Below are positions 4,479 to 26,278 of a DNA stretch of 33,075 nucleotides, in pieces. Numbering within the stretch: the stretch's first letter is position 1; every line of letters starts with the position of its first letter. This DNA comes from Sedimentitalea sp. (GTDB lineage Bacteria; Pseudomonadota; Alphaproteobacteria; Rhodobacterales; Rhodobacteraceae). Where the stretch lies: positions 9,925 to 42,999 of the forward strand of contig JAGRMU010000082.1 of assembly GCA_020441165.1 (NCBI GenBank). Reading direction: 5' to 3'. The position numbers and the translations under genes are program-made. Below the pieces are notes generated by a model that worked only from the letters and a program-made list of their open reading frames with translations, had not been told where the DNA came from and did no database searches.

Positions 4479-6578
4479 ATGCCCGCAGACCAGTCGCTTG
4501 TCGCCGCGTGGAACGAGCTGATGCTGTCGGCGATTCGCGACGGCGGTGCCAAGCCGACCGCCACCACCTACCAGCTGCACCTGACCAGCGCCGCGATCTA
4601 CGACGCCTGGGCGGCCTATGATCGCGCCGCCGACGGCCAATATGGCGACATCGCCCGGCCCGTGGCCGAGCACGATCTCGCCCACAAGGCCGAAGCGGTC
4701 AGCTATGCCGCCTACCGGATGCTCAGCGCGTTCTTTCCAGACCAGCAGGCGCGCTTCGATGCCTTCATGGATGCGCTCGGTTATGACACCGGCATGACCG
4801 GCACCGATACGGCCACCGCTGCCGGGGTCGGCAACCTGGCCGCCGCCACTGTCTGGGCGGCGCGCGCCGGGGACGGGTCGAACTATGCCGAGCTCTATGC
4901 CGACACCTCGGGCTATGCGCCGGTCAACAGCCCCGATCCGGACGCCCCGAATGCGCCGGGCGGGGCCGCGTTCGATCCCAATCACTGGCAGCCGCTGCGC
5001 ATCCCCACCGGCGCGGTCGTCGATGCGAACGGCGTGCCGGTGATCGATCCGGACGATCCGGCCAGCTATGTCGACCAGGTGGCGCTGACCCCGCATTGGG
5101 GCGGCGTCACCCCCTTCGCGCTGGTCTCGGGCGACCAATTCCGCCCCCCGGCGCCGCCGCAGCTGGCCAACCTGGCCGTCTATGTCGACGGCACCGGCAA
5201 GGTGACCACCTATGACCAGGCCTGGCGCGACCAGTTCACCGAGGTGCTGCATCTGAGCGCCGGCCTGACCGCCGAGCAGAAGGTGATCGCCGAATACTGG
5301 GCCGACGGGCCGCGCACCGAATCGCCACCCGGCCACTGGAACCAGATCGCCCAGGACATCGCCCTGCGCGAGGGCCACGGCATCGACGAGGATGCCAAGA
5401 TGTTCTTCGCCCTCAACGCCGCGCTCTTCGATGCCGGCATCGCCACCTGGGAGGCGAAGTTCCACTACGATCTGGTGCGCCCGCAGACGGCGATCCGCTA
5501 TCTCTTCCAAGGCCAGGAAGTCGAAGCCTGGGCCGGGCCGAACCAGGGCACGCAGACCATCATGGGCGAGGACTGGCAGCCCTATCAGAACCTTACCTTC
5601 GTCACCCCACCCTTCCCCGAATACGTCTCGGGCCATTCCGCCTTCTCGATGGCCGCGGCCAAGACCATCGCCAGCTTCGTCGGCTCGGACCTCTTCTTCG
5701 ACGGCACCACTCACGGAAACTACGACCTCGACCACGTGCCGGGGATCGATCTGATCGGCCAGTATGTCGCCACCGGGCTGGCCTTCGAGGACTGGCCCGG
5801 GGGCGAGCCGGTGGTGCTGCAATGGGCGACGCTGACCGAGGCCGCCGAGGAGGCCGGGATCAGCCGGCTCTACGGCGGCATCCACATCCAGGACGGCAAC
5901 CTGCGCTCGCTGGAGCTGGGCAAGCTGGTCGCCGCCGAAGCCGAGATCCGCTGGTCGGCCCTTTTCACCCGCGGCGGCAACGACGTGCTGCATTGCGATG
6001 CGGCGGGCGGGCTGGTGATCGCGGGAGGCGGCAACGACCGGGTCTGGGGCAAGGGTGGCGCCGATCGGATCGAGGGTGGCAGCGGCAGCGATTATCTCAG
6101 CGGACGCGGCGGGCGCGACATGATCCAGGGCGAGGCCGGCAACGACCGGCTGTTCGGCGGGCGCGGCAAGGATCTGCTGTCGGGCGGCGATGGCAATGAC
6201 TTTGCGCGCGGCGGGCGCGGCGCCGATATGCTCGACGGCGGCGCCGGCAACGACCGCCTGCAGGGCGGCGCCGGGGCGGATGTGCTTTCTGGCGGGGCCG
6301 GGATGGACAGGCTGACCGGCGGGCGCGGCGCAGACACCTTCGTCTTCGCCGCTTCGGATGGATCCGACGCCTGCGACCGGATCCTTGATTTCGACGCGGA
6401 TCACGACCGCGTCGTGCTGAGCGGCTTCGATGCCGGCGCCCGGGTGCAGGTCGCCGCGGTCGGTCGGGACAGCGCGATCCTGGTGGACGGCACCAAGTTG
6501 GCGCGCCTGCACCACACCGATGCCGCGGATCTCGAGCTGGGCGTTGTCATCGTCTTCGCGGACATGGCCTTGGGCTGA
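4479..6578 (+). CDS. Vanadium-dependent haloperoxidase-like protein with C-terminal RTX repeats
   Basis: 699 residues. Residues 1-495 are a vanadate haloperoxidase/PAP2-type domain with the full set of vanadate-pocket residues in order: KFHYDLVRP (Lys327, Arg334), SGH (Ser384, His386), and SRLYGGIHIQD (Arg463, His469). Residues ~499-615 are glycine/aspartate nonapeptide RTX repeats of the GGxGxD type, expected to bind calcium. They are followed by a serralysin-like C-terminal segment from DTFVF (~619), the usual type I secretion signal region. There is no N-terminal signal peptide, consistent with ABC-type (T1SS) export; no T1SS genes are adjacent. Expected chemistry is H2O2-driven halide oxidation outside the cell. 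Halide preference cannot be read from sequence. Start is supported by GGGAGGA at 4464-4470, 8 nt upstream. Confidence 0.92.
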   Translation: MPADQSLVAAWNELMLSAIRDGGAKPTATTYQLHLTSAAIYDAWAAYDRAADGQYGDIARPVAEHDLAHKAEAVSYAAYRMLSAFFPDQQARFDAFMDALGYDTGMTGTDTATAAGVGNLAAATVWAARAGDGSNYAELYADTSGYAPVNSPDPDAPNAPGGAAFDPNHWQPLRIPTGAVVDANGVPVIDPDDPASYVDQVALTPHWGGVTPFALVSGDQFRPPAPPQLANLAVYVDGTGKVTTYDQAWRDQFTEVLHLSAGLTAEQKVIAEYWADGPRTESPPGHWNQIAQDIALREGHGIDEDAKMFFALNAALFDAGIATWEAKFHYDLVRPQTAIRYLFQGQEVEAWAGPNQGTQTIMGEDWQPYQNLTFVTPPFPEYVSGHSAFSMAAAKTIASFVGSDLFFDGTTHGNYDLDHVPGIDLIGQYVATGLAFEDWPGGEPVVLQWATLTEAAEEAGISRLYGGIHIQDGNLRSLELGKLVAAEAEIRWSALFTRGGNDVLHCDAAGGLVIAGGGNDRVWGKGGADRIEGGSGSDYLSGRGGRDMIQGEAGNDRLFGGRGKDLLSGGDGNDFARGGRGADMLDGGAGNDRLQGGAGADVLSGGAGMDRLTGGRGADTFVFAASDGSDACDRILDFDADHDRVVLSGFDAGARVQVAAVGRDSAILVDGTKLARLHHTDAADLELGVVIVFADMALG

Positions 6579-18964: not shown

Positions 18965-19875
18965 CAAGCGCGAGCGCCCGCGACCGCATCGCCGCGGCCA
19001 GCAACCTCTCGAAGGGCGAGAGCGAGGTGGCGCTGTGGGTGACGCGGCATTTCGAGAGCCTGCCCTTCGTCAACGCCGCCGATCTTGCCGCCGGCGCCGG
19101 GGTCAGCGAGATGACGGTCAGCCGCTTCGTGCGGCGGCTGGGCTACGAGAACTTCAAGAGCTTCAAGGCCGAGGTCAGCGCCGAGTATCGCGGCGACGGC
19201 CGGACAGCCGGCAAGTCCCGCGCCCTGCGCGTCGCGATTCCCAAGACCACGGGGCGCGAGCTGGACGATCTGCTGCGGCGCGAGCTGGAGGCCATCGCCG
19301 AGGTCTACGAGCTGGCCGAGAGCGATCAGTGGCGCGCGGCGCTCGACGTGATGGAGGCCGCGCGCTTCGTGAACGTGACCGGTTTCCAGGGCGTGAAGGG
19401 CATGGCGATGGATTTCGCGACGCGCCTGAAATACGCCCGGCCGGGGGTGCGGTTCGCCGACGGACGCAGCGGCAACTGGTCGGAGATCTTCATCGAGGAT
19501 CCCGCAAAATCCTGCCTCGTGATGATCGATGTCGTCCCCTACGCCCACGAGGCGGTCAAGATCGCCGAGCTCTGCCTGCGCCGCAAGCTGCCGCTGATCA
19601 TCGTGACCGACCGCTACAGCGCCTGGCCGCGCCAGTACACGCCGCATGTGCTGACCGTGGCCACCGATACCAGCGCGTTCCTCGACAGCACCGCGGGCCT
19701 TGCGGCGCTGCTGGGCCTGATGCTCAACGGGATCACCGCGCGGCGCGGGCGCGAAGCGCGCAAGCGGCTGCGCGCCATGCGCGAGCTGGCGCAGCATTTC
19801 GATCCCTTCTCCTACCAGCCGGGCAGCAAGAGCCGCCCGATCCCGCCCACCGACAGCAAGGAGGATGCGCCATGA
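18961..19875 (+). CDS. MurR/RpiR-family transcriptional regulator with SIS domain
   Basis: 304 residues. N-terminal helix-turn-helix of the RpiR type (residues ~1-80, including AADLAAGAGVSEMTVSRFVR and LGYENFKSFK), then a linker and a SIS domain (~125-260) that in this family senses phosphosugars or related ligands. C-terminal extension rich in Arg/Pro/Ser. Encoded inside the transport operon with ATGA overlaps on both sides, so it is most simply its own regulator. A candidate operator lies upstream of the first gene (13994-14029). Confidence 0.92.
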   Translation: MTSASARDRIAAASNLSKGESEVALWVTRHFESLPFVNAADLAAGAGVSEMTVSRFVRRLGYENFKSFKAEVSAEYRGDGRTAGKSRALRVAIPKTTGRELDDLLRRELEAIAEVYELAESDQWRAALDVMEAARFVNVTGFQGVKGMAMDFATRLKYARPGVRFADGRSGNWSEIFIEDPAKSCLVMIDVVPYAHEAVKIAELCLRRKLPLIIVTDRYSAWPRQYTPHVLTVATDTSAFLDSTAGLAALLGLMLNGITARRGREARKRLRAMRELAQHFDPFSYQPGSKSRPIPPTDSKEDAP

Positions 19876-20978
19876 CGTCTCGCCCCCGCGCCCGCGATCT
19901 CGGCCTGCAGTTCGGCGGCACGCCGGGCGCCTGGAACGCCATCACCGACGTGCCCGGCCTGACGGTCGGGTTCGCCACGGTGATCGAGGAGGCCCGGCCG
20001 GGCGGGCACCAGGGCCTGTGCACCGGCGTCACCGCCATCGTGCCGCGCGGGACCAGCGGCGCGCTCACCCCGGTCTGGGCGGGGGTGCATTCCTTCAACG
20101 GCAATGGCGAGCTGACCGGATCGCACCACATTGCCGATCTCGGCTGGTTCCTCGGGCCGGTGATGCTGACCAATTCGCACAGCGTCGGCATCGTCAGCCA
20201 TGCCGTCGTCGGCTGGATGATCGACCGGCACCGCGAGGTCTTCGCGCGCGATCACATGTGGTGCCTGCCGGTGGTCGCCGAGACCTATGACGGGGTGCTG
20301 AGCGACATCAACGCGCGCGGCGTGACCGAGGCGCATGCCCGCGCCGCGCTGGACGCCGCCGCCTCCGGCCCCCTCGCCGAGGGCAATGTCGGCGGCGGCA
20401 CCGGCATGATCGCCTACGAGTTCAAGGGCGGCACCGGCACCGCCTCGCGCCGGATCGAGGTCGCGGGGCAGGCCTATGCGCTCGGGGTTCTGGTGCAGGC
20501 CAATCATGGCAACCGCGACGCGCTGGAGATCTCGGGCGTACCGGTCGGGCGCGAGATGCGCGAGGATCTGCTCTTCGAGCGCGAGCAGGGGTCGATCATC
20601 GTGGTGGTCGCCACCGATGCGCCGCTGCTGCCGCACCAGCTGAACCGCCTCGCGCGCCGCGGCGCCATCGGGATCGGGCGCAACGGCACTTGCGGCGGGC
20701 ACAGCTCGGGCGACATCTTCCTGGCGTTCAGCACCGCCAACCCGCAGGAGAACCCCTGGCACGCGCCGGACGTGATGACGCTGGCGACGCTCAAGGACAC
20801 GCATCTCGACGCCTTCTACACCGCCGCCGTGCAGGCCATCGAGGAGGCGGTGGTCAACGCCATGATCGCCGCCGAGGACCGCATCGCGGTCAAGCCCGCG
20901 GGCCACCGGGTGCGGGCCATCGACCACGACCGGCTGCGCGCGCTTCTGCACGACATGGCGGGGCGCGAACGGAGATGA
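19872..20978 (+). CDS. P1 family peptidase (DmpA/BapA-like aminopeptidase)
   Basis: 368 residues. Family of L-aminopeptidase D-Ala-esterase/amidase DmpA and beta-aminopeptidases, which self-cleave to expose an N-terminal Ser nucleophile. N-terminal motif GTPGAWNAITDVPGLTVG is characteristic. GNVGGGTGMIAYEFKGG and the segment CGGHSSGDIFLAFSTANP are the conserved cores; Ser279 of SGD is the expected nucleophile and cleavage site. The residue before it is Ser, where I recall Gly or Asn in characterised members. No signal peptide, so it should act in the cytoplasm on imported peptides. Starts in an ATGA overlap with the regulator and ends overlapping the C45 gene. Confidence 0.92.
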   Translation: MTSRPRARDLGLQFGGTPGAWNAITDVPGLTVGFATVIEEARPGGHQGLCTGVTAIVPRGTSGALTPVWAGVHSFNGNGELTGSHHIADLGWFLGPVMLTNSHSVGIVSHAVVGWMIDRHREVFARDHMWCLPVVAETYDGVLSDINARGVTEAHARAALDAAASGPLAEGNVGGGTGMIAYEFKGGTGTASRRIEVAGQAYALGVLVQANHGNRDALEISGVPVGREMREDLLFEREQGSIIVVVATDAPLLPHQLNRLARRGAIGIGRNGTCGGHSSGDIFLAFSTANPQENPWHAPDVMTLATLKDTHLDAFYTAAVQAIEEAVVNAMIAAEDRIAVKPAGHRVRAIDHDRLRALLHDMAGRERR

Positions 20979-22063
20979 GGATCGTCGACTGCACCGGCGC
21001 GCCGCGCGCCCGCGGCCGGGCGCATGGCGAGACGCTGCGACGGATGATCGCCGACGCGCTGGACCGCTGGGCCGAGGCGACGCTGCGCGGTCTTCCGGAG
21101 CGCGCGGAGGGCGGGATCGACGCCTATTGCGCGCGGTTTCTGGGCGAGACCGGGCTGCTGGAGACCGCGCGGCGGATCACTCCCGACCTCCATGACGAGA
21201 TGGCGGGCATCGCCGAGGGGGCGGGCCAGCCGCCGGACCGGATCGCCGCCTACAACCTGATGGACGAGCAATGGTGGTTCGACGCGCGCCGCGATGCCCC
21301 GCCGCCGGGATGCAGCCTGATCGCCCTGCCCGTCCCGGGCGGTCACCTGCTGGCGCAGAACATGGACCTGCCCGGGCACATGGACGGATCGCAGGTGGCG
21401 CTGCGCCTCGCGGGGCCGGACATGCCGGAAACCGTGGTGCTGAGCGCCGCCGGGCTGATCGGCCTGACCGGCGCCAATGCAGCGGGCATCGCCATCGGCG
21501 TGAACACGCTGCTCATGCTGGGCCACGACCGGGGCGGCCTGCCGGTGGCCTTCGCCCTGCGCCACGCCCTCGCTGCGCGCAGCGGCGAGGCGGCGCGCGC
21601 CCGGCTCACCGGCGCCCGCCATGCCAGCGGCCAGCACTACGCCATCGTCACGCGCGGCGGCATCGCGTCGCTGGAGTGCTCGGCGGGCGGATCCGCCGGG
21701 CTGGCGCCCTCGCCCGCCGGCCGGCTGGTGCATACCAATCACCCGCTGGCCAGCACGGATATCGACGCCGAGGCCGAGGCGCGGCTCGACAAGGCGGGGT
21801 TCAACCGCAGCTCGCACCGCCGGCTCGACTGGCTGGCGGAGCGGCAGGCGGGGCTCGCGGGCGCCGAGGAGGTGCAGGCCCTCTTCGACGACGCTGAGGC
21901 GCCGCTCTGCCTGCGCGCGGCGAGCCATGGCGGATCGAGCACCTTCGCCTCGGTCCTCTACGAGATGACCGCCAGCCCGCGTATCCGGATGCGCTCCGGC
22001 CGCCCCGGCGGGGCAGGCTGGCGGGAGATCGGCTTTGCCGGCGAGGGCTCCGCGTCGAGTTGA
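20975..22063 (+). CDS. C45-family autoproteolytic acyltransferase/hydrolase
   Basis: 362 residues. Related to isopenicillin-N acyltransferase-type Ntn hydrolases: GAPRARGRAHGE at the N-terminus, EMAGIAEGAG, then PPPGCSLIAL with Cys113 as the expected nucleophile after self-cleavage between Gly112 and Cys113. Further family segments are LLAQNMDLP, GLIGLTGANAAGIAIGVNTL, and LVHTNHPL. These enzymes hydrolyse or transfer amide-linked acyl groups; the substrate here is unknown. No signal peptide. Last gene of the operon, joined by ATGA to the P1 peptidase. Confidence 0.9.
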   Translation: MRIVDCTGAPRARGRAHGETLRRMIADALDRWAEATLRGLPERAEGGIDAYCARFLGETGLLETARRITPDLHDEMAGIAEGAGQPPDRIAAYNLMDEQWWFDARRDAPPPGCSLIALPVPGGHLLAQNMDLPGHMDGSQVALRLAGPDMPETVVLSAAGLIGLTGANAAGIAIGVNTLLMLGHDRGGLPVAFALRHALAARSGEAARARLTGARHASGQHYAIVTRGGIASLECSAGGSAGLAPSPAGRLVHTNHPLASTDIDAEAEARLDKAGFNRSSHRRLDWLAERQAGLAGAEEVQALFDDAEAPLCLRAASHGGSSTFASVLYEMTASPRIRMRSGRPGGAGWREIGFAGEGSASS

Positions 22064-22209
22064 CTCCGGTGCGCCGGGATGAGAAGCGCAAGGTCCTTTG
22101 GTCACACGCCAAGCGCGTCCCGCCTGACCGTCCCAGACCACGCAGGGGGCGCGGCGAGAGGAAGGCGCAGGCATTCCGGCCTCGAGGAAAAACCCGCACG
22201 CCGCGCCAT

Positions 22210-22258
22210 AAGAATGGGCAAGTCGCGCCGATCCGGCTATAGTGGCGCTCGCATTCTT
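22210..22258 (+). promoter_or_regulatory. Candidate promoter of the winged-helix/TPR regulator gene
   Basis: TATAGT at 22238-22243 resembles a -10 element about 39 bp before the start codon. It sits between inverted 7-bp arms AAGAATG (22210-22216) and CATTCTT (22252-22258), a layout that could serve autoregulation. No good -35 is visible at the right spacing. Confidence 0.35.
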
Positions 22259-22281
22259 GCCTTGCCTTTTTCATCGGGCCC

Positions 22282-23829
22282 ATGGATCAGTTTCGTTTCG
22301 CAGAGTTCATCCTGGACCGCCGCAAGCGGGCGCTGCTGCGCGGGGCCGAGACCGTCCCGATCGGGGCCCGCGCCTTCGATCTGCTGGAGGCCCTTCTGGT
22401 GCACCGGGACAGGGTCGTGCCGCGCGACGAGATCATGCAGATCGTCTGGCCCGGCACGGTGGTGGGCGAGAACAACCTGAACGTCCAGGTCGCCAACCTG
22501 CGCCGTCTGCTCGGCGCGGACGCCATCGTCACGGTGCCGGGTCGCGGGCTGCATTTCGCGCGCGAGGTCCTGCCGGAGGGACCGGCGCTCGGCTTGCCGG
22601 ACAGGCCCTCGGTGGTCGTGCTGCCTTTCGACCGGCTTGGCGGCGATCCCGAGCTCGACTGGCTCGCCGACGGGTTCGTCGAGGACATCACCACCGAGCT
22701 CTCGCGCTTTCGCGACCTCTTCGTGGTCGCCCGCAATTCGGCCTTCGCCTATCGTGAAGCCCCGCGCGATCTGCGGACGGTCGCGCGCGAGCTGGGCGTG
22801 GGCTATGTGGTGGAGGGCAGCGTCCGGGCGCGGGCGAACCGCGTTCGGGTCACCGCGCAGCTGATCGACGCGGCCCATGGCGGCCATGTCTGGGCCGAGA
22901 ATTTCGACCGCGACATGGCGGACCATTTCGAGACCCAGGCGCGCGTGGCCCGCGCCGTCGTCACCTGCCTCTCGCCGCAGATCGACCGCAACGAGGCCGA
23001 CCGGATCCGGGTGCTCGCCCCCGAGGATCTGACCGCCCACGGCCTGGCGCAGCGCGGGTGGTTCTTGATCTCCTCCGGCGAGATGCTCTATGACCCGGAG
23101 CTTCGCGACCAGGCCGAGGACCTGGCGCGGCAGGCCCTGGCGCGGAACGCGGAGTCGGCCCTGGCGTGGCGGGTCCTGGCCTGGGTTGCCTGGTGGAACG
23201 TCTATCACGGCACCACCGACAGCGTCCCCGACACGCTTTCGGCGGGGATCGACGCGGCGACCCGCGCCATCGCCATCGACAAGACCGACCACCAGGCGCG
23301 GCGGCTCAGGGCGCAACTGCACTTCATGAAAGACGACGTCGCGGCGGGCCTGCCCGAGATGCGGCAGGCCCACGAGATGAACCCGAACTGCGCGGTCACG
23401 CTGTGCTGGCTGGGCCTCTACGAGGCCATCAACGGCAGCGCGGAGATCGGCGTGCCGCTCGTCGAGGCGGGCCTGCGGCGAAGCCCGCGCGATCCGGCCC
23501 GCGGCTCGATGCTCTGCGCGCTGGGGTTCGCAGAATTCGCGGCGCGCGATTACGCGGCGGCGGCCGACGCCGCCGAGGCCGCGCTCGCCGAGTCCGCGAG
23601 CAGCACCACGCCGCTGGTCCTCGCCACCATCGCCTATGTCGGACAGGGCCGGATCGACAAGGCCACCGAGACGTTCCAGCGGGTCGAGCGCATGGCGCCC
23701 AAGCTGGTCGGGGCGCGCCTGTCCGGCCGCTGGCTCAGCACGAACCCCGATTACCTGTCGCGCGCGCATACCTTCTTCCGGATCGCCGCCGGGCTCGTCC
23801 CGCCCGAGGCCGCCGACGCACTGCGCTGA
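22282..23829 (+). CDS. Winged-helix (OmpR/CadC-type) regulator with TolB-like and TPR regions
   Basis: 515 residues. N-terminal winged helix (~1-95: FDLLEALLVHRDRVVPRDEI, NNLNVQVANLRRLLG, IVTVPGRGLHFA) of the trans_reg_C type without a receiver domain. Then a TolB N-terminal-like/adenylate-cyclase-associated region (~105-215: PSVVVLPFDRLGGDPELDW, ELGVGYVVEGSVR, QLIDAAHGGHVWAENFDRD), then alpha-helical tetratricopeptide-like repeats to the C-terminus (~260-500). No transmembrane segment, unlike CadC itself. The start lacks an obvious Shine-Dalgarno. Targets are unknown; the following genes with the repeated 39-bp element are candidates. Confidence 0.9.
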   Translation: MDQFRFAEFILDRRKRALLRGAETVPIGARAFDLLEALLVHRDRVVPRDEIMQIVWPGTVVGENNLNVQVANLRRLLGADAIVTVPGRGLHFAREVLPEGPALGLPDRPSVVVLPFDRLGGDPELDWLADGFVEDITTELSRFRDLFVVARNSAFAYREAPRDLRTVARELGVGYVVEGSVRARANRVRVTAQLIDAAHGGHVWAENFDRDMADHFETQARVARAVVTCLSPQIDRNEADRIRVLAPEDLTAHGLAQRGWFLISSGEMLYDPELRDQAEDLARQALARNAESALAWRVLAWVAWWNVYHGTTDSVPDTLSAGIDAATRAIAIDKTDHQARRLRAQLHFMKDDVAAGLPEMRQAHEMNPNCAVTLCWLGLYEAINGSAEIGVPLVEAGLRRSPRDPARGSMLCALGFAEFAARDYAAAADAAEAALAESASSTTPLVLATIAYVGQGRIDKATETFQRVERMAPKLVGARLSGRWLSTNPDYLSRAHTFFRIAAGLVPPEAADALR

Positions 23830-23847
23830 TCCCCGTCCCCGGATTTA

Positions 23848-23886
23848 GATCTTTTTAGACGCTCGTATAGCCACGCGCGATTGCGG
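23848..23886 (+). promoter_or_regulatory. 39-bp repeated element, copy A (upstream of the small exported-protein gene)
   Basis: Begins GATCTTTTT and ends CGATTGCGG; aligns without gaps to copy B at 24328-24366 with 28 of 39 positions identical by eye. Conservation is at both ends and around GCC-CGC, which suggests a protein-binding or promoter element. TTAGAT (23845-23850) and TATAGC (23866-23871) could be a -35/-10 pair with a 15-bp spacer. Confidence 0.5.
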
Positions 23887-23992
23887 CGGGCGAGGATGGT
23901 CTTGCGCGAGCCTGCCGCCCGAACGGGCGCTGGCGCGCCGCGTCGAACCGGCCCGGTCAAGGGTCGGGCGGCCAGCGGAAAGGGAAATGCCC

Positions 23993-24244
23993 ATGCTCTA
24001 CATCGTCCTGACGGCGTGCCTCGTCTCGAGTCCCGACGCCTGCGAAGAAAGGTACATTCCTCTCTACGCCGATATTTCGCCGATGGCCTGCATGATGGGC
24101 GCCCAGGCGGAAATCGCGCGGTGGCAGGAAACCCATGCCGACCTCGATGTGTCCCGCTGGCAATGCAAGACGGACGAGATGATCGCGTTGGCCGAAACGC
24201 CCGGCGAGCTGGACGTGGCGCCTCATCCCATCGAACTGGAGTGA
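23993..24244 (+). CDS. Small cysteine-containing, probably exported protein
   Basis: 83 residues from the ATG at 23993 (MLYIVLTACLVSS), chosen because GGAAAGGG (23977-23984) is 8 nt upstream; an ATG two codons earlier (23987) is too close to it. A short hydrophobic N-terminus is followed by a small domain with four cysteines (C9, C17, then PMACMM and RWQC). This is the pattern I associate with a family of short hypothetical Rhodobacterales proteins, probably periplasmic with disulfides. Cys9 lies in a LTAC context that could also be read as a weak lipobox. Function unknown. Confidence 0.7.
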   Translation: MLYIVLTACLVSSPDACEERYIPLYADISPMACMMGAQAEIARWQETHADLDVSRWQCKTDEMIALAETPGELDVAPHPIELE

Positions 24245-24327
24245 CCCGCCTGCAGGGCATAGCGCCACCCGGGCGCGCGCCGCGACAGGCGGCAGACCGG
24301 AAGCGCGGACCACCGGCCTTGGCCTTG

Positions 24328-24366
24328 GATCTTTTTGGCGCGCCGTCTTGCCGCGCACGATCGCGG
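24328..24366 (+). promoter_or_regulatory. 39-bp repeated element, copy B (upstream of the sulfotransferase gene)
   Basis: Begins GATCTTTTT and ends CGATCGCGG; ungapped partner of copy A (28/39 identical). It lies about 50 bp before the sulfotransferase start, at a distance suited to a promoter or activator site. TTGGAT at 24325-24330 would serve as a -35. Confidence 0.5.
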
Positions 24367-24415
24367 AGACTGCGCTATCGATACGGCGCCGGGCATTTCG
24401 GACAGGAGAGAAATC

Positions 24416-25051
24416 ATGTCGCTTGAAATCGTCGGCTCGGGTTTCGGCCGGACGGGCACGATGTCGACCAAGATGGCGCTCGAAGAGCTGGGCTTCGGGC
24501 CATGTCATCACATGAAGGAGGTGATGGGCGACACCGAACAGCCGCCGTTCTGGACGGCCCGCGCGGCCGGCGAGCCGGTCGACTGGCATGGCGTCTTCGC
24601 CAGCTACACCGCGCAGGTCGACTTTCCCGGCGCCGCGGTCTGGCCGGAACTGGTCGACGCCTTTCCCGAGGCGAAGGTGATCCATACCGAGCGCCCGGAA
24701 GACGACTGGTGGGCCAGCTACTCCACGACGATCGGCAAGTTCTGGATGCACTACCGAGCGCTTCCGCTTCCCCCGGAGATCGTCGAGCTGTTCGAAACCA
24801 TGGAAAAGCTCCTCGCGACGGGGGTGTTCGGCGGCTCGGACCGCGAGACCTGCATTGCCGCCTATCGGCGCAACAACGCGCTGGTCCGGGAGACCGTGCC
24901 GGACGAAAAGCTGCTGATCTTCACGCCCTCGGACGGCTGGGAGCCGTTGTGCCGGTTTCTCGACGTCCCGGTTCCGGATGGAGATTTCCCGCGCAGCAAT
25001 GCGCGCGACGAGTTCTGGGCGCTTTTCGGTGGCGAGCCCAAGGTGGCCTGA
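24416..25051 (+). CDS. Sulfotransferase family protein
   Basis: 211 residues. Starts MSLEIVGSGFGRTGTMSTK: the GFGRTGTMSTK loop (9-19) is the 5'-phosphosulfate-binding P-loop-like motif of PAPS-dependent sulfotransferases. Further family features are LEELGFGPCHHM, AKVIHTERPEDDWWASY (the 3'-phosphate-binding region with Arg and Ser), and WEPLCRFLDVPVPDGDFPRSN near the C-terminus. Cytoplasmic, no signal peptide. AGGAGAG (24404-24410) is 5 nt before the ATG. The acceptor is unknown; many bacterial members of this subgroup have no assigned substrate. Confidence 0.9.
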   Translation: MSLEIVGSGFGRTGTMSTKMALEELGFGPCHHMKEVMGDTEQPPFWTARAAGEPVDWHGVFASYTAQVDFPGAAVWPELVDAFPEAKVIHTERPEDDWWASYSTTIGKFWMHYRALPLPPEIVELFETMEKLLATGVFGGSDRETCIAAYRRNNALVRETVPDEKLLIFTPSDGWEPLCRFLDVPVPDGDFPRSNARDEFWALFGGEPKVA

Positions 25052-25490
25052 CGCCGCCCGCGCCGCGAGCAGGCGATCCGACCGCGCCGCCATCGCCCCG
25101 CTGGTCTATGCCGCGACGGTGCTTGCCCTCAGCCTGTCCTACACGCTGGGCCGGATGCTGCCGCTGACCGCACTCGCGCGCCTCTTCGCGACCCCGCGGA
25201 TGCAGCGGGCCGCCGATCTTGTCACACGGGCGGCGCCGCTGCCGCAGGGCGAACGGCTGGCGATGCTCCTCGAGGGCGCGCCGCCCCGCGTGCTGGCCCT
25301 CGCCCTGCGCCAGCGCTACCTGGCCCTCGCGCTGGCGCTGAACATTCCCGGCAACGCCCTCGTCGGCGGCGGCGGCGGCATCGCCCTCCTCGCCGGGTTG
25401 AGCGGGCTCTTTGCCCCGCTGCCGACCCTCCTGACAGTCGCGATCGCGGTTTGCCCGGTCCCGCTTGCCGTCATGCTGCTGGGCGCCTGA
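25029..25490 (+). CDS. Small hydrophobic membrane protein (GTG start proposed)
   Basis: About 153 residues. The frame has no ATG between the sulfotransferase stop and the first hydrophobic helix, so I propose GTG at 25029, overlapping the sulfotransferase gene by 23 nt; the upstream ATG at 24978 lies deep inside that gene. Three hydrophobic segments (LVYAATVLALSLSY; RQRYLALALALNIPGNALV; GIALLAGLSGLF and onwards) with a glycine run GGGGG between the last two. Probably an inner-membrane protein translated together with the sulfotransferase. No family is recognised and the exact start is uncertain. Confidence 0.6.
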   Translation: MASPRWPDAARAASRRSDRAAIAPLVYAATVLALSLSYTLGRMLPLTALARLFATPRMQRAADLVTRAAPLPQGERLAMLLEGAPPRVLALALRQRYLALALALNIPGNALVGGGGGIALLAGLSGLFAPLPTLLTVAIAVCPVPLAVMLLGA

Positions 25491-25564
25491 GTCCGCCGGC
25501 GCGCGTTTACTCGATGACCGCCATGCGCAAGCATGGTCGAGAAGCGGGGCGCGGCTGTGGCCGG

Positions 25565-26278
25565 TTACTCGACCGCCAGAATGGCCCGACCGACGGGCGT
25601 GTGCAGCACCATCCGGTCGACCCGGATCCGACCATCCGGCAAGGAGCCATAGGTCATGTCGAACCCTCCGAACATGGTGTCGATCATGCCCTGGGGCGCC
25701 ACGCCCTTCAGCCGGCTGAACCCGCCCGTGCAGGTCACCTGACCCTCCGGATCCCGGCCGGGCGAGCCAAGCCTCAGGCGCATCAATCGCTTTCCGTCAT
25801 AGGTCGTCACGTCCAGCTTGCAGGCATCCTCGGGCGGAATCGCGCGGAGGATCAGATGCATGCCCGTCATCAGATCGATGCTGCCAACCGCCTGTCGCGG
25901 GTCGAGGCGGTCCGGCTGAGACGGGATCTCGACGGTGATTTCGGGCGTCTCGCCCTGCCAGACGATTTCCGTCACCTCGCGTTCGTCGCCCCGCAGGCTT
26001 TCCTCGCGGTATTTCACCGGCACCAGCGCGCCGTCCGGCGTTCTGCGGCCTTGCGATGCCGCATCGAACGTCACGCTGGAGAGCAGCCCCGCCAGCCCGC
26101 CGGTCTGGAACCTCATGCCGGCCGAATAGGACGCGGCGTCACCCGCGTCGGTATAGCTCAGCGTGCCCAGCTTGAGACCGGCCAGCCGGAGAACGAACGT
26201 GACCTGTTCGGCGCTCGCCGCGCTGCCGAGCGAGACGACGATCAGAAGTGCCGCGATCCGGTTGCAGAGGGGTCTCAT
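25565..26278 (-). CDS. DUF3108 domain-containing exported protein
   Basis: 237 residues. Signal peptide MRPLCNRIAALLIVVSLGSA with likely cleavage after ASA (residue 23), then a beta-rich DUF3108 region: FVLRLAGLKLGTLSYTDAG, YSAGMRFQTGGLAGLL, a central DPRQAVGSIDLMTGM, and CKLDVTTYDGKRLMRLRLG. Two cysteines (in the segments AC-K and TCTGG) could pair. The start at 26278 keeps a normal signal peptide; 11 more in-frame codons exist upstream without support. Probably periplasmic or outer-membrane associated; function unknown. It follows the racemase gene by 33 bp in the same direction and could be cotranscribed. Confidence 0.85.
   Translation of the reverse strand: MRPLCNRIAALLIVVSLGSAASAEQVTFVLRLAGLKLGTLSYTDAGDAASYSAGMRFQTGGLAGLLSSVTFDAASQGRRTPDGALVPVKYREESLRGDEREVTEIVWQGETPEITVEIPSQPDRLDPRQAVGSIDLMTGMHLILRAIPPEDACKLDVTTYDGKRLMRLRLGSPGRDPEGQVTCTGGFSRLKGVAPQGMIDTMFGGFDMTYGSLPDGRIRVDRMVLHTPVGRAILAVE

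Follow-up and report, generated by a model that had tools for sequence, protein, structure and literature searches.

CadC carries a transmembrane helix between its winged helix and its sensor domain, and response regulators of the OmpR/PhoB type bind boxes made of direct repeats. AfsR, a SARP of Streptomyces, sits as a side-by-side dimer on direct repeats that overlap the -35 region, and SARP direct repeats lie 11 or 22 bp apart (PMC10936776). The stretch of DNA analyzed here, which we call the window, is 33,075 nucleotides long and encodes a 515-aa protein (22282-23829, + strand) that combines a winged helix with TPR repeats. Its Trans_reg_C domain (Pfam PF00486, E 1.2e-12) scores 48.1 bits against a cut-off of 26.2, and TPR_14 is matched as well. 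Like HilA/EilA and CadC, it has an N-terminal winged helix of the OmpR type, after which come an alpha-beta part and then TPR-like helices. HilA/EilA is its best NCBIfam match (residues 3-407, E 6.5e-12), with 44.6 bits lying below the cut-off of 589 bits, and CadC is matched over residues 4-96 (E 2e-8), with 33.6 bits lying below the equivalog cut-off of 400 bits.

An AlphaFold2 model of the regulator (25 sequences) has a mean pLDDT of 84.4 and a pTM of 0.57, and the arrangement of its domains is not to be trusted. The model consists of a winged helix (about residues 1-95), an alpha-beta part (about 109-241), and helical repeats from residue 252 onward. In a Foldseek search with the model, TPR proteins came out on top and the periplasmic domain of CadC (3ly8) came sixth, with an E of 5.3e-6. 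The predicted recognition helix covers about residues 63-77. G62, N64-Q69, and L73-R74, which lie in or beside it, are invariant in all 25 regulators compared, as expected if all of them read the same box. The best reading of the sequence is that this protein is a soluble regulator of a CadC/HilA-like winged-helix/TPR type, which would control adjacent, exchangeable genes. Its alpha-beta/TPR part may sense a cytoplasmic signal.

The 31-bp element beside relatives of the regulator

Behind the regulator gene there is an element of 31 bp, a direct repeat with the consensus TTTAG-N5-TTTAG-N7-KRTRGMC. Twenty-four loci outside the window encode regulator relatives that are 59-83% identical and carry this element, which starts -5 to 76 bp from the stop codon of the regulator, the median being 14 bp. 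The loci were taken from one search for relatives, which gave 21 loci, and from further genomes of the family. There were 28 site rows before filtering, which became 25 when we dropped L061, where the regulator is interrupted and the site lies elsewhere, and L041 and L044, whose sites are the same as those of L053 and L064. Four duplicates (L018, L019, L040, and L043, which are the same loci as L046, L058, L049, and L054) were not used. Four loci, compared by eye, supplied the consensus that seeded the search for sites. Columns 0-14 are therefore partly ascertained, whereas columns 15-30 are not. The 25 loci are also related, and hence they are not independent of one another.

TTTA is found at columns 0-3 and 10-13 in every one of the 25 loci. 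Outside the columns used in the search, conservation is seen at C16 (21/25), C20 (21/25), T24 (20/25), and G26 (23/25). Over the same 25 loci, flank columns -20 to -3 do not exceed 0.62 bits, and columns 31-69 do not exceed 0.52 bits, except for columns 35 (1.03) and 46 (0.84). Because the flanking columns stay low, the conservation of the element goes beyond what common descent alone would give. When each locus was scored with a leave-one-out matrix, 23 of the 25 sites reached 30.4-48.0 bits. The two Roseomonas sites reached only 10.6 and 16.2 bits, and their membership is therefore weaker; matches in the flanks of L053, L057, L058, and L060 score 11.7-13.1 bits, and the lower Roseomonas site is no better than some of these. 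The same weak match stands behind a methyltransferase-like gene in two genomes (L053 8904, 12.9 bits; L060 8622, 13.1 bits), where it is possibly a further degenerate box. Covariation of the half-site 1 variant (TTTAT or TTTAG) with the regulator tree was also considered but did not hold up cleanly: the variant took 5 changes on the tree, and 37-38 of 500 shuffles were as low.

The two copies in the window

The original prediction described a pair of 39-mers at 23848-23886 and 24328-24366 that shared 28 of 39 positions when counted by eye. These coordinates are correct, and there are exactly 28 identities. In first-order Markov shuffles of both intergenic stretches, the best 39-mer identity had a mean of 22.3 and a maximum of 27, and 28 was reached in none of 1000. 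The pattern GATCTTTTT-N21-CGATNGCGG has exact matches in the window's genome (3.87 Mb, 78% complete) only at the two window copies, and 2 further places match with 2 mismatches. The copies are thus real, but their boundaries had been misplaced. The conserved 31-bp unit begins further 5', at 23843-23873 and 24323-24353, so that the first half-site of copy 1 was only half included. The 3' part of the pair, CGATNGCGG, is common to both window copies and does not emerge as a conserved block across the 25 loci.

We scanned 66,090 positions of the window with a matrix made from the 24 other loci. Copy 1 (23843-23873, + strand) is a predicted operator that ranks first, with 45.5 bits. According to the columns of the 25 loci, its blocks are TTTAG at 23844-23848, TTTAG at 23854-23858, and a third block, TATAGCC, at 23866-23872. 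Behind it lies the first predicted target, a gene for a small, 85-aa protein that contains 4 Cys (23987-24244, + strand); the gene starts 144 bp downstream of where copy 1 begins. This protein has no match in Pfam or NCBIfam, and a 72% identical counterpart stands behind the site in L039. Its earlier reading as an exported peptide found no support. Copy 2 (24323-24353, + strand), a degenerate predicted operator, ranks second with 12.0 bits, the third rank having 0.7 bits. Its blocks read CTTGG (24324-24328), TTTGG (24334-24338), and TCTTGCC (24346-24352). The second predicted target, a sulfotransferase of 211 aa (24416-25051, + strand; Pfam Sulfotransfer_4, E 2.4e-60), starts 92 bp downstream of where copy 2 begins.

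Judged by its letters and place, copy 2 is probably a degenerate, weaker second box that would serve the sulfotransferase gene. It is less likely, though quite possible, that only copy 1 is a real box and that copy 2 resembles it by chance or is a duplicate that has lost its function. At three columns where all 25 loci have T, A, and A, copy 2 has C, G, and G. Its score falls among those of the flank matches in four other loci (11.7-13.1 bits), and of the sulfotransferase genes that stand further down the clusters, most have no box of their own in a scan at 10 bits. What speaks against a chance origin is the second rank among 66,090 positions and the fact that 1 of 5000 shuffles (a fraction of 0.0002) of the 171-bp stretch before the sulfotransferase gene scores as well. 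The 28/39 identity with copy 1 and a start-codon distance within the usual range also argue for a second box.

Reverse-complement pieces of the element had further been proposed in front of the regulator gene itself, at 22222-22250. These did not hold up: the best 39-mer in 22064-22281 has 18 of 39 identities, which is equalled by 301 of 500 shuffles. The GGCTATA letters in this region fall in a sigma-70-like hexamer pair, TGGGCA-N17-TATAGT (22215-22243, + strand), which is a consensus match only (1 found; shuffle mean, 0.1). Autoregulation through the box was rejected as well, since among the matches listed there is none of at least 8 bits upstream of, and directed towards, the regulator in any locus. 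The stretch just upstream of the regulator (19872-22063) holds a Peptidase_S58 gene (PF03576) that has a 4-bp overlap with an acyl-transferase-like gene (AAT, PF03417).

Occurrence of the element and the genes behind it

Two outcomes had been named as speaking against the original prediction, namely, a general promoter present in front of hundreds of unrelated genes and absence of the element from relatives with the same genes. Neither applies. The regulator is present in 10 of 394 genomes of the family (E 1e-75 or better). The strict 27-nt pattern was matched 9 times, in 7 of these 394 genomes, and 7 of the 9 matches are at a regulator locus. This rarity rules out a general promoter. The strict pattern occurs in 5 of the 10 regulator genomes versus 2 of the 384 others (Fisher P, 6.7e-8), and a reversed control pattern gave 6 matches in the 394 genomes, none of them in a regulator genome. 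When up to 2 mismatches were allowed, every one of the 10 regulator genomes had a site adjoining the regulator (an exact one in 5 genomes, one mismatch in 4, and two mismatches in 1), and the remaining 23 matches did not exceed those of the reversed control (93). Because the pattern was itself drawn from regulator loci, what is informative is how scarce it is elsewhere.

The two orphan strict matches, in genomes G296 and G194 (L067 1498 and L069 1500), score 24.7 and 27.4 bits, and no significant regulator match lies within 1.5 kb of them (best E, 0.16 and 2.3). Both are within what the reversed control shows to be expected by chance, and they indicate that scores of 24.7-27.4 bits can arise without the regulator. 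At loci with homologs of the sulfotransferase (10 loci) and the small protein (11 loci) in regulator-free genomes, i.e., those with no regulator match at 1e-60, the element matrix reached at most 6.8 bits across about 3-3.6 kb. Six loci whose regulators are more distant (35-39% identical) gave at most 0.5 bits.

From these sequence comparisons, the element is very probably the operator or promoter box of the neighboring regulator. It is unlikely to be a sigma-factor promoter that works independently of this regulator, with TTTAGA as the -35, a spacer of 16 bp, and a -10 resembling TATAGC. Copy 1 can indeed be read as TTTAGA-N16-TATAGC, and with a -10 matrix the KRTRGM block outscores its surroundings. 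However, such a promoter leaves the invariant second TTTA inside the spacer unexplained, several loci have GGGTGACG, which does not resemble a -10, and the strict pattern is nearly confined to genomes with the regulator. A consistent -10 box was looked for, and none was located.

The genes behind the boxes belong to several families: GYD (PF08734), SnoaL-like, cupin (PF12973/PF07883), class I methyltransferase, Sulfotransfer_4, and Sulfotransfer_1. There are also an MFS-like protein (recognized by eye), small proteins without a family, and a protein distantly like the spheroidene monooxygenase CrtA (37.7 of 300 bits). Our guess is that the target genes modify or detoxify small molecules. The sulfated product suggested earlier is unsupported speculation, as the sulfotransferase is one of several exchangeable families behind such boxes. 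The membrane-protein gene that follows it, which had been taken to be intact, is a 5'-truncated remnant (25086-25490, + strand). It matches residues 88-221 of the 221-aa L049 protein with 78% identity (tblastn), and about 87 N-terminal residues were not found, residues 1-87 of the L049 protein having no tblastn match in the window at E 1e-3. The open reading frame in which it lies (24978-25490) has its apparent ATG inside the sulfotransferase gene. In L047, L048, L049, and L051, the membrane-protein gene stands behind a conserved small gene.

We measured how far the start codon lies from the first base of the element, with the position of the ATG counted from 1. This spacing is 101-102 for SnoaL-like genes (4/4), 108-112 for GYD genes (8/9; the ninth has 127), and 127-129 for cupin genes (3/3). 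The small protein has 145 and 151, and the sulfotransferase has 81 and 93. For the methyltransferase, two loci have 126 and 128 and L054 has 218, and the value computed for L063 (-183) is unusable. Single cases are the MFS-like gene (96), the first gene of L045 (111), a relative of the membrane protein in L065 (136), and the first gene of L057 (189); in L050 and L066, no gene close behind the site could be assigned to any of the families used. Common descent may account for a shared spacing within one family, so that more weight falls on the similar range seen across families that are unrelated. The original proposal of a small local regulon of a winged-helix/TPR regulator, in which the element occupies the promoter positions of the small-protein and sulfotransferase genes, is supported.

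The distance from the element to the start codon is also steadier than that to the regulator stop codon. This argues against the idea that the element is just part of the 3' end of the regulator gene, e.g., a site of recombination or attachment where cargo genes are swapped, with no control of transcription. We regard this as very improbable, even though the position of the element (-5 to 76 bp from the stop codon in 25 loci) and the differing genes behind it would fit, because 5 of the 30 sites (copy 2, L039, the second site of L055, L064, and L061) stand before target genes and are not the site adjoining the regulator. In L039, the site is divergent and lies before a SnoaL gene, upstream of the regulator. 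In L061, the site before a GYD gene scores 48.9 bits though the regulator is interrupted: the match to the regulator starts only at residue 67 and is preceded by a transposase-like reading frame, which HTH_Tnp_1 matches at its cut-off. The least credible alternative is that the element acts as RNA (a leader, an attenuator, or a terminator behind the regulator), which would suit its T-rich stretches and its place just behind the stop codon but is opposed by the lack of any match to Rfam in 22000-25600 (up to E 0.1) and of a terminator-like site in 23830-23900 and by conserved blocks that are direct repeats.

Two of these loci have further features. In L055, a reading frame at 6196-6567 resembles, by eye, the C-terminal end of a second copy of the regulator. 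The second predicted operator (6582), followed by GYD, lies behind this frame, and the two together are probably a decayed tandem module. L064 has a natural spacing variant before a SnoaL-like gene (6133-6165; 16-18 bits), in which the TTTAG half-sites are spaced by 12 bp and not by the usual 10.

Mechanism, spread, and comparison with described systems

If the element is the box of the neighboring regulator, the regulator would bind it and, by analogy with CadC, HilA, and the SARP regulators, would act as an activator. Each of the two head-to-tail TTTAG half-sites, which are 10 bp apart, would take one winged-helix domain, and the paired winged helices on these blocks may recruit RNA polymerase in the manner of AfsR. 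The KRTRGMC block, 12 bp after the second half-site, could be a third half-site or could overlap the -10 region. The former may be the case because TRGMC resembles TAGCC and because GGGTGACG of several loci does not look like a -10. The regulator would act locally, with its box just behind its own gene and before the next operon; the other strong boxes lie within the same gene neighborhood.

The module is sporadic in Rhodobacteraceae-type bacteria and in Roseomonas, which accounts for two of the 21 regulator loci. In the wider class, a relative was found at 1e-110 in 1 of 385 genomes, the window's own, and no plasmid-borne relative was matched at 1e-60. Three genomes have two modules, namely, that of the window (C180 and C207), Jannaschia formosa (L050 and L055), and Marivita SBSPR2 (L047 and L060). 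Cultured relatives that carry the module include J. formosa 12N15, Thetidibacter halocola KMU-90, and Roseibacterium persicicum KMU-115. Regulators of this build look numerous, and a first look at the window's genome gave 17 candidates. In a literature search that had most subscription papers outside its scope, we recognized no description of this regulator clade, its binding site, or its gene set. It may well be that we are dealing with an undescribed, self-contained module, in which a soluble winged-helix/TPR regulator has a private three-block operator of 31 bp behind its own gene, and in which exchangeable genes for the modification of small molecules (GYD, SnoaL-like, cupin, methyltransferase, sulfotransferase, and CrtA-like) are plugged in. 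For this clade, there is now a concrete box together with a predicted recognition helix and a few listed targets, which makes binding, signal, and function directly testable. Moreover, gene families of unclear role, such as the small Cys protein, the CrtA-like protein, and the GYD proteins, become tied to one switch.

The described systems resemble this module in their parts. Unlike CadC, the regulator has no transmembrane stretch evident by eye in residues 90-115, and both its predicted targets and its predicted box differ from those of CadC and HilA/EilA. With AfsR and the other SARPs it shares an OmpR-type DNA-binding domain plus TPR, but neither BTAD nor NOD is among its six Pfam matches at E 0.01. 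The repeats beside it are 10 bp apart, with a third block 12 bp further, a spacing other than the 11 or 22 bp described for SARPs. The Trans_reg_C winged helix is that of OmpR and PhoB, and alongside this type of domain, tandem direct repeats have been kept beside the regulator gene in the 25 loci. What differs from OmpR/PhoB and two-component systems is that the winged helix is N-terminal and that the same six Pfam matches include no receiver domain. The box is new in its details and ordinary in principle.
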